A stretch of DNA of 64,000 nucleotides, from NCBI RefSeq assembly GCF_027925245.1, contig NZ_BSDP01000001.1:1612001-1676000 (forward strand), written 5' to 3'. This DNA comes from Agromyces rhizosphaerae. GTDB taxonomy: Bacteria; Actinomycetota; Actinomycetes; Actinomycetales; Microbacteriaceae. Position numbers and translations under genes: made by a program. Within the stretch, counting starts at the first letter, position 1. The number at the start of each line of letters is the position of its first letter. Under the pieces are notes generated by a model. It was not told where the DNA came from, did no database searches, and saw only the letters and a list, made by a program, of their open reading frames with translations. Of the stretch, positions 36,851 through 47,061 are shown in pieces.

Positions 36851-37465
36851 GTGACGGATGCCGCCGGGGACGCGCGCGGCGCGGACCGCTCGTGGATCGC
36901 ACCCCTCGTCCGGTCGGGCCTCGCGCTCGCCGCGGCCGTGGTCATCACGTTCTCGCAGGATCACTCGACGACCTTCGGCCTGCTCGTCTTCGGCGCCTGG
37001 GCGCTCGCGACCGGCCTCGTCGTCGGCGCGCTGCAGCTGCGCCTCGAGGCCGATCGCTCCACGCGCACGCTCCTGACCGTGGCATCCGTCGTCACGGTCG
37101 TCTCGGGCATCCTGGCGCTCACCGTGCCCGCGGTGCTGCCGATGCTCTATTACGTGATCAGCGTGTGGGCGGCCGTGACCGGCTTCATCGAGCTGTTCGC
37201 GGGCCTGCGCACGCGCGGCCGGCACCCCGCGTCGCGCGACCGGGTCGCGGTCGGCGCGTTCACCGCGGTGCTCGCGATCGTGTTCCTGCTGCTGCCGCCC
37301 GACAACCCCGTGGTCGCCGTCGGCCTGTTCGGCGCGTACCTCGCCATGATCGGCGTGTTCCTCGGCATCGCCGCGTTCTCGATCCGGTGGGCCGCGCTCG
37401 AGCGCGAGTCCGCACCCGAGGCTGCGAACGACGCCTCCCCCGAAGCCCTGAAGGACGACGAATGA
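36851..37465 (+). CDS. HdeD/DUF308-like membrane protein
   Basis: 204 residues with six hydrophobic helices in three pairs, like HdeD of E. coli. Conserved helix pairs include LLVFGAWALATGLVVGA and GFIELFAGLR. Acid-resistance relatives are known but this function is only an analogy. GTG 36851 start; no strong ribosome site. Overlaps the next gene by 4 nt (ATGA), so they form an operon. Confidence 0.75.
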   Translation: MTDAAGDARGADRSWIAPLVRSGLALAAAVVITFSQDHSTTFGLLVFGAWALATGLVVGALQLRLEADRSTRTLLTVASVVTVVSGILALTVPAVLPMLYYVISVWAAVTGFIELFAGLRTRGRHPASRDRVAVGAFTAVLAIVFLLLPPDNPVVAVGLFGAYLAMIGVFLGIAAFSIRWAALERESAPEAANDASPEALKDDE

Positions 37466-37746
37466 GCACCACCGGACCCGACGACGACCAGCCCACCCCG
37501 CCCAGCCGGCGCGATGTGCTGCGCCCGGTCGAGCTGGTCGGCGGCTCGGCGCTCGCCGCAGTCTTCGTGGGCGTGATCGTGCTGATGACGACGCGCGAGT
37601 GGCAGCTCACCGCGATCTCGGCCGGCGTCGTCTTCATCGTCGTGCTCGTCGCGCTCGCGATGTTCGCGCTGACGTTCAAGGACGACGACGCGATCGACCC
37701 CCGCGACGAGGGCCCCGACCCCGAGGCGGAGCCCCCCGCCCACTGA
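37462..37746 (+). CDS. Small two-helix membrane protein, unknown function
   Basis: 94 residues with two hydrophobic helices (ELVGGSALAAVFVGVIVLM and ISAGVVFIVVLVALAMFAL) and acidic Pro-rich ends. Family unknown to me. Co-translated with the preceding HdeD-like gene through a 4-nt overlap. Downstream lies an unusual inverted-repeat cluster before purB. Confidence 0.72.
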   Translation: MSTTGPDDDQPTPPSRRDVLRPVELVGGSALAAVFVGVIVLMTTREWQLTAISAGVVFIVVLVALAMFALTFKDDDAIDPRDEGPDPEAEPPAH

Positions 37747-37767: not shown

Positions 37768-37935
37768 CACTTTTCAGGAAGACGCCGTGCGTGGGTCGTG
37801 CGCTTTTCAGGAAGCCACCGGCGGCACTCAAGCCTTCAGGCTTGAATGCGCGACAAACTAGCGGGAATCGGACAGGATTCCGGCCTGCACTCCTGAAAAG
37901 TGCGAGACACCGAGTCGGGGCGTTCCTGAAAAGCG
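37768..37935. repeat. Four-copy inverted-repeat element with core TTTTCAGGA
   Basis: Non-coding between convergent genes. Copy R1 CACTTTTCAGGA (37768-37779) is exactly complementary to R1' (37891-37902), and R2 CGCTTTTCAGGAA (37801-37813) exactly complementary to R2' (37923-37935). The order R1-R2-R1'-R2' is crossing, so a pseudoknot or two alternative nested pairings are possible. Between them lie two further hairpins: TCAAGCC/GGCTTGA with loop TTCA (37828-37845) and GGAATC/GATTCC (37764... internal, 37864-37881). No open frame of note. Confidence 0.7.
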
Positions 37936-37956: not shown

Positions 37957-39336
37957 TCAGATGCGGTCGACGAGGTCGCCCGCGAGGCCCGTGTAGCCGC
38001 CGGGCGTGAGCGCGAGCAGGCGCTGCTTCGCCTCGTCGCCGATGTCCAGGCCCGACACGAACTCGGCCAGCTCGGCGGCGCCGACGCGGCGGCCCCGCGT
38101 GAGCTCCTTGAGCATCGCGTAGGGGTCGCTGATCGACGAGCGCCCCGCGACGACCTCGGCCCGCACGACGGTCTGGATCGCCTCGCCGAGGATCTCCCAG
38201 TTCGCGTCGAGGTCGGCGGCGAGCGCGTCCCGGTCGAGGTCGATCTCGCCGAGCCCGCGGCGGATGTTGTCGAGCGCGAGCATCGAGTGCCCGAGCCCCA
38301 GCCCGATGTTGCGCTGCGCCGACGAGTCGGTGAGGTCGCGCTGCAGGCGCGAGGTCACGAGCGTCGCGGCGAGCGAGTCGAGCACGGCCGACGAGAGCTC
38401 GAGGTTCGCCTCGGCGTTCTCGAAGCGGATCGGGTTGATCTTGTGCGGCATGGTCGACGACCCGGTCGCGCCGGCCTGCGGGATCTGCCGGAAGTACCCG
38501 AGCGAGATGTAGGTCCAGATGTCGGTCGCGAGGTTGTGCAGCACCCGGTTCGCGTGCGAGATGCGCGCGTAGAGCTCGGCCTGCCAGTCGTGCGACTCGA
38601 TCTGCGTGGTGAGCGGGTTCCAGGTCAGCCCGAGCGACTCGACGAACTCGCGCGAGATGTCCGGCCACGAGGCATCCGGTGCCGCCACGAGGTGGGCCGC
38701 GAACGTGCCGGTCGCGCCCGAGAACTTGCCCAGGTACTCGGTGTCGATCACCTGCGAGCGGATGCGACGGAGCCGGTGCACGAACACCGCGAGCTCCTTG
38801 CCCATGGTCGACGGGGTCGCCGGCTGACCGTGTGTGCGCGAGAGCATCGCGTCGTCGCGGTGGGCGCGGGCGAGGTCGGCCAGCGCGTCGATGACCGCGT
38901 CGAACTTCGGCAGCCAGGCATCCGCCACCGCATCGCGCACGGTGACCGCGTAGGAGAGGTTGTTGATGTCCTCGCTCGTGCAGGCGAAGTGGGTGAGCTC
39001 GGCGATCGCGTCGAGCCCGAGCGACGAGAGGCGACGGCGCACGTAGTACTCGACGGCCTTCACGTCGTGGCGGGTGGTGGCCTCGAGCTCGGCGAGCTCG
39101 TCGATGTCGGCCTGCGCGAAGTCGGTGACGACGGCTCGCAGCGCGGCCTTCTGGTCGTCGGTGAGGGCGGATGCCCCGAAGAAGCCGCGGTCGGTCTGGG
39201 CGATCAGCCACTCGACCTCGACGTGCACGCGCGCCCGGTTGAGCCCCGCCTCGGAGAGGTGCTCCCCCAGTTCGACGACCGCCGACCGGTACCGGCCGTC
39301 GAGCGGGCTGAGGGGCTGCGGGGGGAGGTTGCTCAT
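37957..39336 (-). CDS. purB: Adenylosuccinate lyase
   Basis: 459 residues. Fumarase-superfamily enzyme that splits adenylosuccinate to AMP and SAICAR to AICAR in purine synthesis. Signature GSSTMPHKINPIRFE with catalytic Ser is present; other conserved blocks: LSPLDGRYRSAV, ELTHFACTSEDINNLSY and MLSRTHGQPATPSTMG. Start 39336 follows AGGGAA. It overlaps the preceding phosphatase by 4 nt, so both are in one operon. Confidence 0.96.
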   Translation of the reverse strand: MSNLPPQPLSPLDGRYRSAVVELGEHLSEAGLNRARVHVEVEWLIAQTDRGFFGASALTDDQKAALRAVVTDFAQADIDELAELEATTRHDVKAVEYYVRRRLSSLGLDAIAELTHFACTSEDINNLSYAVTVRDAVADAWLPKFDAVIDALADLARAHRDDAMLSRTHGQPATPSTMGKELAVFVHRLRRIRSQVIDTEYLGKFSGATGTFAAHLVAAPDASWPDISREFVESLGLTWNPLTTQIESHDWQAELYARISHANRVLHNLATDIWTYISLGYFRQIPQAGATGSSTMPHKINPIRFENAEANLELSSAVLDSLAATLVTSRLQRDLTDSSAQRNIGLGLGHSMLALDNIRRGLGEIDLDRDALAADLDANWEILGEAIQTVVRAEVVAGRSSISDPYAMLKELTRGRRVGAAELAEFVSGLDIGDEAKQRLLALTPGGYTGLAGDLVDRI

Positions 39337-39854
39337 CGGGTTCCCTGTCTGAGTGCTGGAGCGAGCTGGCGGAACAGGGCCAGCGACGACCGCTCTATCA
39401 TCCCAAGAACCCGGTCGAACATCGCATCGTCGGAGTAGTAGGGGTCGGGCACGTCCTGCAGCGGCGCCAGTTCGGGGTCGAAGCTGAGCATCATCCGCAC
39501 CTTCGCGTGGTCGCGCTCGGTGGGCGCCCAGTTGCGCAGGATGCGGGCCTGCGACCGGTCGAACGCGACCACGAGGTCGAGCTCGCCGAAGCCCGACGCG
39601 TCGAACTGCTGCGCGCGGTGCTGCGTGCCGTCGTAGCCGTGCCGCTCGAGGGCGGCGATGGTGCGGAGGTCGGCCTGCTCGCCGACGTGCCAGTCGCCGG
39701 TCGCGGCCGAGTCGATGTCGAGACGGTCGCCGAGTCCCGCTCGATCCGCGAGGCTCTTCAGCACGACTTCGGCCATGGGCGACCGGCAGATGTTGCCGGT
39801 GCAGACGAAGCAGATGCGGAAGCGCGGCGGGTTGCCCGGCTCCGATTGCAACAT
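39333..39854 (-). CDS. Low-molecular-weight protein-tyrosine phosphatase
   Basis: 173 residues. The N-terminal P-loop FVCTGNICRSPMAE (C-x5-R) is the active site and VPDPYYSDD holds the catalytic Asp. Normal length for LMW-PTP. Start placed at 39854 after GGGAG; ATG 39863 is an alternative. Its stop overlaps the purB start (ATGA), an unusual coupling of signalling and purine genes. Target tyrosine phosphoproteins unknown. Confidence 0.93.
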   Translation of the reverse strand: MLQSEPGNPPRFRICFVCTGNICRSPMAEVVLKSLADRAGLGDRLDIDSAATGDWHVGEQADLRTIAALERHGYDGTQHRAQQFDASGFGELDLVVAFDRSQARILRNWAPTERDHAKVRMMLSFDPELAPLQDVPDPYYSDDAMFDRVLGMIERSSLALFRQLAPALRQGTR

Positions 39855-41804: not shown

Positions 41805-42191
41805 CTACTTGCTCGTGACCGGCCTCAGGATCAGACCGAGGATCCAGGCGATGATCGCGACGACGATCGCGCCGAGCACGCCCCACCAGAACCCGTCGAC
41901 CACGAGCCCGAAGCCCATCAGGCTGCTGATCCAGCCGACGAGCAGGAAGAGCAGGCCGTTCACGATCAGCGCGAGCAGCCCGAGCGTCAGCACGTACAGC
42001 GGGAACGCGATGATGTGCAGCACCGTGCCGATGATCCCGTTCACGAGACCGAAGATCAGGGCGACGAGGAGGTACGTGAGCACCACCGCCAGCGTCGTGT
42101 TCTCGTAGGGCTCGACGCTCACGCCGGCGACGATGAGCGTGGTGAGCCACAGGGCGACGGCGTTGACGATGATCTTCAGCAGGAAGCGCAT
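41805..42191 (-). CDS. Phage-holin-4/YvlD-like membrane protein
   Basis: 128 residues with four hydrophobic helices ([78 protein letters not shown]). This is the PF04020-type family found widely in bacterial chromosomes; the holin name is historical. CATAGT ends six nucleotides before ATG 42191. No phage genes nearby. Function unknown. Confidence 0.82.
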
Positions 42192-44531: not shown

Positions 44532-45658
44532 CCCGCGAGGTACGTGAACGCGACCAGGTCGACGAGGTGCCCCCGGTGGTCGCCGCGCCGCCCGCTCCCC
44601 CGGCCCCGGGCACCCCGGGCGAGAGCCGAGCGGATGCCTCCGAGGCGGCCGAGGCCGACGCGCCTGCGCCCGAGCTGCTCGGGGTGCAGTCGATGCCCAT
44701 GGGCAAGGCGATCAACGCCGGGCTCCGCAAGGCGCTCGCCGACGACCCGAAGGTGCTCCTCATGGGCGAGGACATCGGACCGCTCGGCGGCGTCTTCCGC
44801 GTGACCGAGGGGCTCCACGCCGAGTTCGGCGGCGACCGCGTGATCGACTCGCCGCTCGCCGAGTCGGGCATCGTCGGCACGGCCATCGGCCTCGCGATGC
44901 GCGGCTACCGCCCGGTGCTCGAGATCCAGTTCGACGGGTTCGTCTTCCCCGCATTCGACCAGATCACCACGCAGCTCGGCCGCCAGAACCTGCGCCACGA
45001 CGGCCGCATGCCGATGCCGGTCGTCATCCGTATCCCCTACGGCGGTCACATCGGCTCGATCGAGCACCACCAGGAGAGCCCCGAGGCGTACTTCACGCAC
45101 ACCCCCGGCATCCGGGTCGTGAGCCCCTCGTCGCCGCACGACGCGTACTGGATGATCCAGGAGGCCATCGCCTCGAACGACCCCGTGATCTTCTTCGAGC
45201 CCAAGAGCCGCTACTGGCCGAAGGGCCCGGTCGACCTCGACCACGCGGGCATCGCACTGCATTCCTCACGGGTCATGCGTCGCGGCACGGACGTCACGGT
45301 GGTCGGCCACGGCGCCATGGTCGCCACGCTGCTGCAGGCCGCCGACATCGCCGAGCAGGAGGGGCGCAGCCTCGAGGTCGTCGACCTCCGGTCGCTCTCC
45401 CCCATCGACTACGGCCCGCTCGTCGACTCGGTGCAGCGCACCGGGCGCCTCGTGGTCGCCCAGGAGGCGGTCGGCTTCACGAGCCTCGGCTCCGAGGTCG
45501 CCGCGACCATCGCCGAGCGCTGCTTCTACTCGCTCGAGGCACCCGTGCTGCGGGTCTCGAGCTTCGACACGCCCTTCCCGCCCGCCGCGCTCGAGGCGGA
45601 CTACCTGCCGAGCCCCGACCGCGTGCTCGAAGCCGTCGACCGCGCGCTCGCCTACTGA
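44528..45658 (+). CDS. 2-oxoacid dehydrogenase E1 beta subunit with extended N-terminus
   Basis: 376 residues. The catalytic part starts near residue 53 ([16 protein letters not shown]) and shows [25 protein letters not shown], and [24 protein letters not shown]. Before it is a Pro/Ala/Glu-rich extension of about 50 residues absent from ordinary E1 beta. The ATG is well supported by GAGGGAGG and the 4-nt overlap with E1 alpha. The E2 gene follows 32 bp downstream. Confidence 0.9.
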
Positions 45659-45690
45659 GTGCCACGCACCGAAGCGCACCGAGGAGCACG

Positions 45691-47061
45691 ATGACCGAGA
45701 TGCAGTTCCCCCTCCCCGACGTCGGCGAGGGACTGACCGAGGCCGAGATCGTCTCGTGGCGCGTCGCGCCGGGCGACCGCATCGAGCTCGACCAGGTGTT
45801 CGTCGAGATCGAGACCGCGAAGTCGCTCGTCGAGCTGCCGAGCCCCACCGAGGGCGTCGTGAGCAAGCTGCTCGTCGAGGTCGGGCAGACGGTCGACGTG
45901 GGCACCCCGATCGTGGCGGTGCAGACGGATGCCGCGGGCGGCATGGATTCCCCGAGCGAGGCGCCGGCACCGTCGGAGGCGGCCCAGGTCGCCGCGGACA
46001 CCGCGTCGACCGTCGCGTCGGAGCCCGAGCCCGAGGCATCCGGTGCCGTGCTCGTCGGCCACGGCAGCTCCGGGCCCGCCTCGAGCCGCCGCAAGCGCCA
46101 CCCCGCTCCCCCGGTCGCGCACGAGCACTTCGCCGAGCCGGCTCCCGCGCCGTCGGCCGGCGTGCCGACCAAGGTGGCGGGCGCGCGCACCGAGTCGGAC
46201 GTGCCGGTGATCGCGAAGCCGCCGATCCGCAAGCTCGCGAAGGACCTCGGGGTCGACCTCAACCGGGTCACCGCGACCGGTCCGATCGGCGAGATCACGC
46301 GCGACGACGTGATCCGCGAGGCCTCGCAGGCCAGCGTGTTCCGCAACATCCAGACGCCCGAGACGCCGTCGGACCGCGAGCACCGCGTGCCGGTGAAGGG
46401 CGTGCGCAAGGCGATCGCCGCGGCGATGGTCGAGAGCGCATACTCCGCGCCGCATGTGAGCGTGTTCGTCGACGTGGACGCCACCCGCACGATGGAGTAC
46501 GTGAAGCGCCTGAAGGCCTCCCCCGACTTCGCGGGCGTGAAGGTCTCGCCGCTGCTGATCATGGCCAAGGCGATGATCTGGGCGGTGCGGCGCAACCCGA
46601 CCGCGAACGCGCAGTGGACCGACCGCGAGATCGTGGTCAAGCACTACGTGAACCTCGGCGTGGCGGCGGCGACGCCGCGCGGTCTGATCGTGCCGAACGT
46701 GAAGGAGGCGCAGGCCATGAGCATGGTCGAGCTCGCCACGGCGCTCGAGCAGCTCACCCTGACCGCGCGTGAGGGCAAGACGCAGCCGGCCGAGATGCAG
46801 GGCGGCACGATCACCATCACGAACATCGGGGTCTTCGGCATGGACACCGGCACGCCGATCCTGAACCCCGGCGAGGTCGCGATCGTGGCGCTCGGCACGA
46901 TCAAGCAGAAGCCGTGGGTGGTCGACGGCGAGGTCCGCCCGCGGTTCGTGACCACGATCGGTGCGTCGTTCGACCACCGCGTGGTCGACGGCGACGTGGC
47001 GTCGCGGTTCCTCGCCGACGTGGCGGCGATCATCGAGGAACCCGCGCTGCTGCTGGAGTAG
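45691..47061 (+). CDS. Dihydrolipoamide acyltransferase (E2)
   Basis: 456 residues. One lipoyl domain with Lys44 in [11 protein letters not shown], a Pro/Ala-rich linker, a peripheral subunit-binding domain ([31 protein letters not shown], near 175-210) and the catalytic domain ending in [17 protein letters not shown]. Transfers the acyl group to CoA. No E3 (lipoamide dehydrogenase) gene follows, so E3 must come from elsewhere. Likely co-transcribed with E1 genes. Confidence 0.93.

Follow-up and report, generated by a model that had tools for sequence, protein, structure and literature searches.

A four-box intergenic locus of Agromyces rhizosphaerae as a possible variant of a dispersed, two-ended repeat family

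Mycobacteriophage L5 stoperators are reportedly short asymmetric boxes that lie in intergenic gaps and are oriented with transcription. REPINs are described in excerpts of PMC3116915 as intergenic, with two conserved 16-bp ends in inverted orientation and a spacer that is less conserved and fixed in length. CGTC-tagged REPs are palindromic extragenic repeats, apparently without a dedicated transposase, and form units of 20–40 bp with an 8–9 bp stem beside the tag; five other phyla are given for them, and the main text of the source contains no word beginning ‘actinobacter’ (excerpts of PMC3733652). ERIC is a 127-bp intergenic sequence whose inverted ends carry TA and which shows target duplications (excerpts of PMC2229807). 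Among the literature matches listed, none concerned such a repeat in the group studied here. The locus described below, at positions 37768–37935 of a 64-kb window (the whole stretch of Agromyces rhizosphaerae DNA that was analysed), is tentatively read as a variant, with four boxes, of a REPIN-like, two-ended repeat that is dispersed in Agromyces and whose boxes may be bound by a putative protein; this is our best explanation, and we give it somewhat less than an even chance.

The locus occupies a gap of 210 bp between converging genes, leaving 21 bp on either side. It consists of four boxes and two palindromes:

37462..37746, + strand: left neighbour, a 94-aa ORF, 3′ end towards the element
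37768..37779, + strand: box R1, outer left, CACTTTTCAGGA; core same as the genome-wide box
37801..37813, + strand: box R2, inner left, CGCTTTTCAGGAA
37824..37849, no strand: palindrome or hairpin 1, 12-bp arms, 92% complementary
about 37861..37884, no strand: palindrome or hairpin 2, GGAATC...GATTCC
37891..37902, − strand: box R1′, inner right, TCCTGAAAAGTG
37923..37935, − strand: box R2′, outer right, TTCCTGAAAAGCG
37957..39393, − strand: right neighbour purB (adenylosuccinate lyase), 3′ end towards the element

R1 and R1′ match exactly over 12 bp, and R2 and R2′ exactly over 13 bp. The initial annotation had recorded two exact crossing pairs of these lengths with a common core and two separate hairpins between the boxes; coordinates, lengths and both hairpins agree with our analysis, but the core is 10 bp (CTTTTCAGGA), not 9. 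All four boxes have it, in the orientations +, +, −, − and at spacings of 33/88/33, and the ‘crossing’ arrangement depends solely on the 1–3 bases that flank the core. The boxes can be taken as two crossing 131-bp pairs or as a 98-bp pair within a 164-bp pair. With up to one mismatch allowed, CTTTTCAGGA has four matches in the window, all exact and all at this locus, against a shuffle mean of 0.39; four matches were reached in 0 of 100 shuffles. A Pfam search with the 94-aa ORF gave 0 matches, and a similar ORF end is found at the same place in three relatives (L122–L124, read by eye). A small Phage_holin_4_2 (PF04020) protein is encoded further along the window, at 41805–42140 on the minus strand.

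The four-box region folds at −95.9 kcal/mol on the + strand (shuffles −67.7 ± 4.9; 0 of 200 equal it) and at −85 kcal/mol on the − strand (shuffles −64.7 ± 4.5; 1 of 200 equals it). In the lowest-energy + strand fold the boxes pair nested, outer with outer and inner with inner, because all four have the 10-bp core in common. The exact matches thus cross as had been claimed, but the best fold does not. Rfam at gathering scores gave 0 matches in the whole window, and a search for a consensus intrinsic terminator at the four-box site found none.

A genome search for other copies, set beforehand as a test, revealed a family. The genome that contains the window (G000; a single contig of 3.6 Mb) carries 43 exact copies of CTTTTCAGGA, against 0.95 expected from base composition and 0 for the reversed control. 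Exact inward pairs account for 38 of the 43 boxes, and three further boxes are paired with a copy that carries one or two mismatches. The remaining two lie in a tandem array (L005, G000:C1:about 2069904–2070084) whose units of ∼75 bp each contain two box-like sites at a distance of 21 bp; these sites carry 0–2 mismatches and present the box in a satellite-like setting. The genome holds 18 exact inward pairs of span 112–142 bp (control 0), two of which are the four-box locus, and apart from this locus and one composite the exact pairs span 127–129 bp. Across 60 Agromyces genomes exact pairs are found in four (G000 18, G001 14, G006 11, G016 6; all controls 0). A sequence profile built from 32 of the 52 elements collected by then matches seven of the 60 genomes, with 40 matches in G000, 54 in G016, 36 in G001 and 24 in G006, both strands being counted and elements numbering about half, and with weak matches in G015 (22), G004 (4) and G035 (1). 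In G015 and G004 the weak matches share the core box but not the geometry, and the single one of G035 has TTCAGGAG ends only. Four G015 loci (L156, L169, L174, L179) show a longer end, about CTTTTCAGGAGGGGGTGTGG, with a span of 88–89 bp in three; L169 is longer than the other G015 loci and has long runs of G and C between its ends.

Outside the genus the signal is sparse: CTTTTCAGGAG is present in 80 of 249 Microbacteriaceae genomes, 5 of the 80 being Agromyces, and it exceeds its reversed control clearly only in Agromyces G000 (26 vs 0) and G004 (12 vs 0), the next counts being 4. Pattern matches in genome_contigs beyond the set comprise 52 stretches, of which the Agromyces MAG CAJXGN supplies 12, and those in IMG/VR number 5; the other 40 genome_contigs stretches and the 5 from IMG/VR were assessed by profile score alone (45 loci and the window). 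With the four-box element's own DNA as query, two of the 60 genomes match: the element's own genome, and G023 over 25 bases of the flank. Plasmid and phage collections gave no match to element-like DNA, and spread by plasmid or phage was accordingly rejected. No gene common to the element neighbourhoods was seen; families recur at two or three loci each at most, and those that recur look like housekeeping genes (judged by eye).

Besides the four-box copy, 73 elements were collected from four species (G016 27, G000 19, G001 16, G006 11), by a search that required TCAGGA in the core, allowed up to two mismatches and covered spans of 122–141 bp. They show that the unit is an inward-facing pair, sometimes two pairs, of a single asymmetric box whose consensus is G[GT]C[AG]CTTTTCAGGA[AG]. 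The span is 128 bp in 51 elements, 127 in 11, 129 in five and 137 in three, with one element each at 135, 138 and 139; 67 of the 73 thus lie at 127–129 bp and 6 at 135–139 bp, so for this clade the distance is shown to be fixed at 128 ± 1 bp, with a minor class of longer elements. The box ends are nearly constant, partly by choice, the elements of G000, G001 and G006 having been picked by exact boxes or profile. In G016, whose arms were selected as the best matches to the box, the CTTT part varies, and the C at −2 and TCAGGA are constant in 42 of 42 arms.

Between the boxes, copies differ almost as shuffled sequence does. Interior identity within a genome has a median of 59% (55% for shuffled sequence) and a maximum of 73%, and between species it reaches 92%. 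Elements at loci shared between species keep their length; at one such locus a four-box composite of 216 bp is kept in three species, with a very different interior in G001. A+T-rich palindromic spots occur near +33, the centre and +94, and with the arms folded together A+T-rich spots appear near +33, +53 and +63. The palindrome next to a box is centred ∼28.5 bp inward of the box centre, and the box overlaps no palindrome. A covariation test on 35 dissimilar elements of 128 bp is positive for the central palindrome, which scores 5.87 where the 12 column-permuted nulls do not exceed 4.56; the left one equals the top null and the right one (3.6) falls inside the null range. Complementarity between the arms in the interior shows no excess (anti-diagonal z at most 2.1), and an interior arm-to-arm stem was rejected.

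By its own letters the four-box copy is the odd one out of its family. Its inner span of 98 bp is 30 bp below 128, and an extra outer box lies 33 bp outside each inner one. The centres of hairpin 1 and the inner left box are 29 bp apart, close to the 28.5 bp of the +33 palindrome in the 128-bp elements, and hairpin 2 does not fit the position of their palindromes. The family model gives the copy 30.9 bits; since box pairs in unrelated sequence score nearly as high (29.6 for L075, 27.5 for L222), this score derives from the boxes. Its probable membership would therefore rest on the boxes, the C at −2 (4 of 4 boxes) and the place, the interior being dissimilar. The nearest parallel to the 33/88/33 arrangement is the ladder of G004, where 11 of 13 loci read have tandem boxes 30–31 bp apart and an opposite box 46–47 bp from the inner one, and the remaining two carry a 67-bp pair. 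Inward boxes in other Agromyces stand 46, 67 and 79 bp apart. The spacing classes fit a helical period of ∼10 bp weakly (p about 0.03, post hoc), a fit carried by inverted distances; direct distances do not fit (R about 0.2).

The units are shown to sit behind genes. Of 42 classified elements, 24 lie between two genes that both end there, as compared with 54 of 201 ordinary gaps (Fisher p 0.0002). This statistic counts orthologues from the four species separately, although they are not independent, and its baseline gaps were restricted to 600 bp whereas element neighbours were unrestricted; in G000 alone the count is 12 of 17 (p 0.0004). One neighbour ends at the element in 15 of the 42 and none in 3. 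Neighbouring genes were called by a codon-score heuristic, which left 10 of 52 elements unclassified and missed the left gene of the four-box copy, taking the gene further left instead. A stop codon lies 4–39 bp from the box at 35 of 52 elements. Boxes also occur in the gap before a cystathionine synthase-like gene (named by eye) in G000, G006 and G028 (L014, L119, L151), with a different box geometry in the more distant G028.

Relatives differ in which loci are occupied. The initial annotation had proposed looking for decay in close strains; in the three nearest relatives the four-box locus is a short gap with no box, the element missing entirely with no decayed remnant. Compared with G006, 6 of 20 G000 elements have a counterpart, 11 have none and three (L017, L022, L032) are unplaced; at 3 of the 11 (L010 with two elements, and L041) more than the element is missing. 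The 10 corresponding element-free gaps of G006 hold 1–62 bp of unrelated filler; TCAGGA does not occur within 60 bp, and any match to the box has at least three mismatches. No target-site duplication is visible there by eye, the filler making the element borders inexact. As far as seen, these loci are all-or-none, as would be expected if whole units are gained or lost. The purB gap of five other Agromyces loci (L125, L136, L137, L142, L148) contains other inverted or direct repeats (GTTCGGGAGGAG..., CTGCAGGAGAT..., by eye), among them a ∼90-bp direct repeat in L148 (by eye) and box-like sites 19 and 27 bp apart in L142 (G013). In G080 two purB matches of identical score and opposite orientation (C9:30817–32238 and 45369–46790) represent an inverted duplication or an assembly artefact.

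Whether DNA or RNA is recognized bears on several readings. Among the 73 elements, 46 have two perfect box arms, 23 have one arm changed, three have both changed differently and one has both changed alike. The 37 changed positions comprise 2 that keep a Watson-Crick pair, 17 that are G-U on one strand and 18 that are mismatched on both strands. Because the changes lack compensation, it is the sequence of each box that appears to be kept, not pairing between boxes, and this points to recognition of double-stranded DNA. Variable positions beside the box are alike in both arms about as often as expected, position −3 being higher (0.60 vs 0.44). The pseudoknot or switch between alternative folds proposed for the crossing pairs was rejected on these grounds: the common core lets the boxes pair equally well nested, so no pseudoknot is needed, and the arm pairing is not maintained. 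A structured RNA, riboswitch-like or a pseudoknotted switch, would draw on the very stable folds of both strands of the four-box region and on the covarying central palindrome, but the window contains no Rfam family, the arm stem is uncompensated and the interiors lack complementarity between arms; we consider it highly improbable. The covariation check suggested at the outset was thus negative in the box arms and positive in the central palindrome. Paired intrinsic terminators, in which each arm forms a weak hairpin followed by CRCTTTT, is placed behind one of the converging genes and is read inwards, with the middle as a spacer, have better prospects. The placement at two gene ends and the nearby stop codons fit, and stems of at least four pairs with the last base at −3 occur in 48.6% of 146 arms and in 27.5% of shuffles. 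Moving the stem end onwards by one to three bases gave no excess, however, and eleven end points were tried. The T-run follows three unpaired bases and has just four T; TCAGGA, the part that varies least, lies beyond the run; and the fixed 128-bp distance and the elements at one gene end stay unexplained. The earlier suggestion of a bidirectional terminator fits by place, but the four-box site has no consensus terminator and the arms are weak as stem plus T-run. We regard paired terminators as rather unlikely, with roughly one chance in four.

The length raises a different possibility, an architectural site: a nucleoid protein or topoisomerase would wrap or loop ∼128 bp of DNA, anchored at the two boxes, where genes converge. 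A length that is fixed while the sequence is free would suit it, as would the smaller length class being about one helical turn longer, the A+T-rich spots in the folded arms and the agreement of the spacing classes with the helical period. That test is post hoc and weak, however, and the inward-box distances of other Agromyces are quite different. Strong base specificity, as in the boxes, is atypical of gyrase or HU-like wrapping and also counts against such a site, which we judge unlikely. An old, decaying MITE of the ordinary kind, bounded by terminal inverted repeats, is still less probable. Inverted ends, size and intergenic place are those of ERIC-type repeats (excerpts of PMC2229807), and orthologous sites differ by presence and absence. 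Against it, near-identical copies are absent from all four genomes, lengths are constant while interiors drift, no target duplication was seen at the G006 gaps, plasmids and phages hold no similar DNA, and the flanks of the loci showed no autonomous element with these ends. Of the three identities suggested by the initial annotation, a small transposable repeat came nearest: the dispersed intergenic family exists, but recent copies are missing from each of the four genomes and target-site duplications were not seen.

We therefore return to the REPIN-like repeat. One putative sequence-specific protein would bind each box on double-stranded DNA, and the same protein may join both ends across the fixed distance; by this joining the unit would be recognized and kept as a whole, and now and then gained or lost whole via its ends, as REPINs are. 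In its present position the four-box copy, should it act at all, would most likely affect where the transcripts of the two converging genes end, as a terminator or roadblock. A bolder version, doubtful to about the same degree as paired terminators, is a clade-specific punctuation in which one putative protein joins inward boxes over a 128-bp ruler of arbitrary sequence and the resulting small loop or wrap insulates converging genes, the same box being used with rulers of 128, ∼88 (G015) and 30/31–46 bp (G004) in different clades. Repeats that preserve their ends and length but not their middle, and do so without the usual transposase, raise the question of what keeps them; if one protein reads the boxes, this would be either a novel means of marking the ends of genes or an end-recognition system that has been domesticated.

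Compared with the known systems, L5 stoperators differ in being phage-borne single sites, which are not known to have a fixed pair distance. CGTC-tagged REPs, as far as excerpts describe them, are likewise palindromic extragenic repeats apparently without a dedicated transposase, but the Agromyces boxes have no adjoining stem. ERIC sequences are similar along their whole length. Size, intergenic place and inverted ends of the Agromyces elements resemble ERIC/IRU and other MITEs as excerpted, whereas ERIC has TA ends and target duplications and in the Agromyces family the ends alone are alike. The closest likeness is to the REPINs of Pseudomonas and others, since the Agromyces element also has invariant inverted ends and a free spacer of fixed length (excerpts of PMC3116915). 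This architecture is found across the family at 127–129 bp in 67 of 73 elements, with 98/131/164 bp in the four-box copy. Unlike REPINs, the Agromyces elements are longer (128 bp), have no recent copies, have no palindrome directly beside the box and are not accompanied by a RAYT/Y1 transposase (PF01797), which was found in 0 of 14 Agromyces genomes by a search whose control was positive in 5 of 14 known genomes. Because RAYT is absent and the box overlaps no palindrome, we do not call the family REPIN; we call it REPIN-like, for the recognition by its ends that it would share with them.
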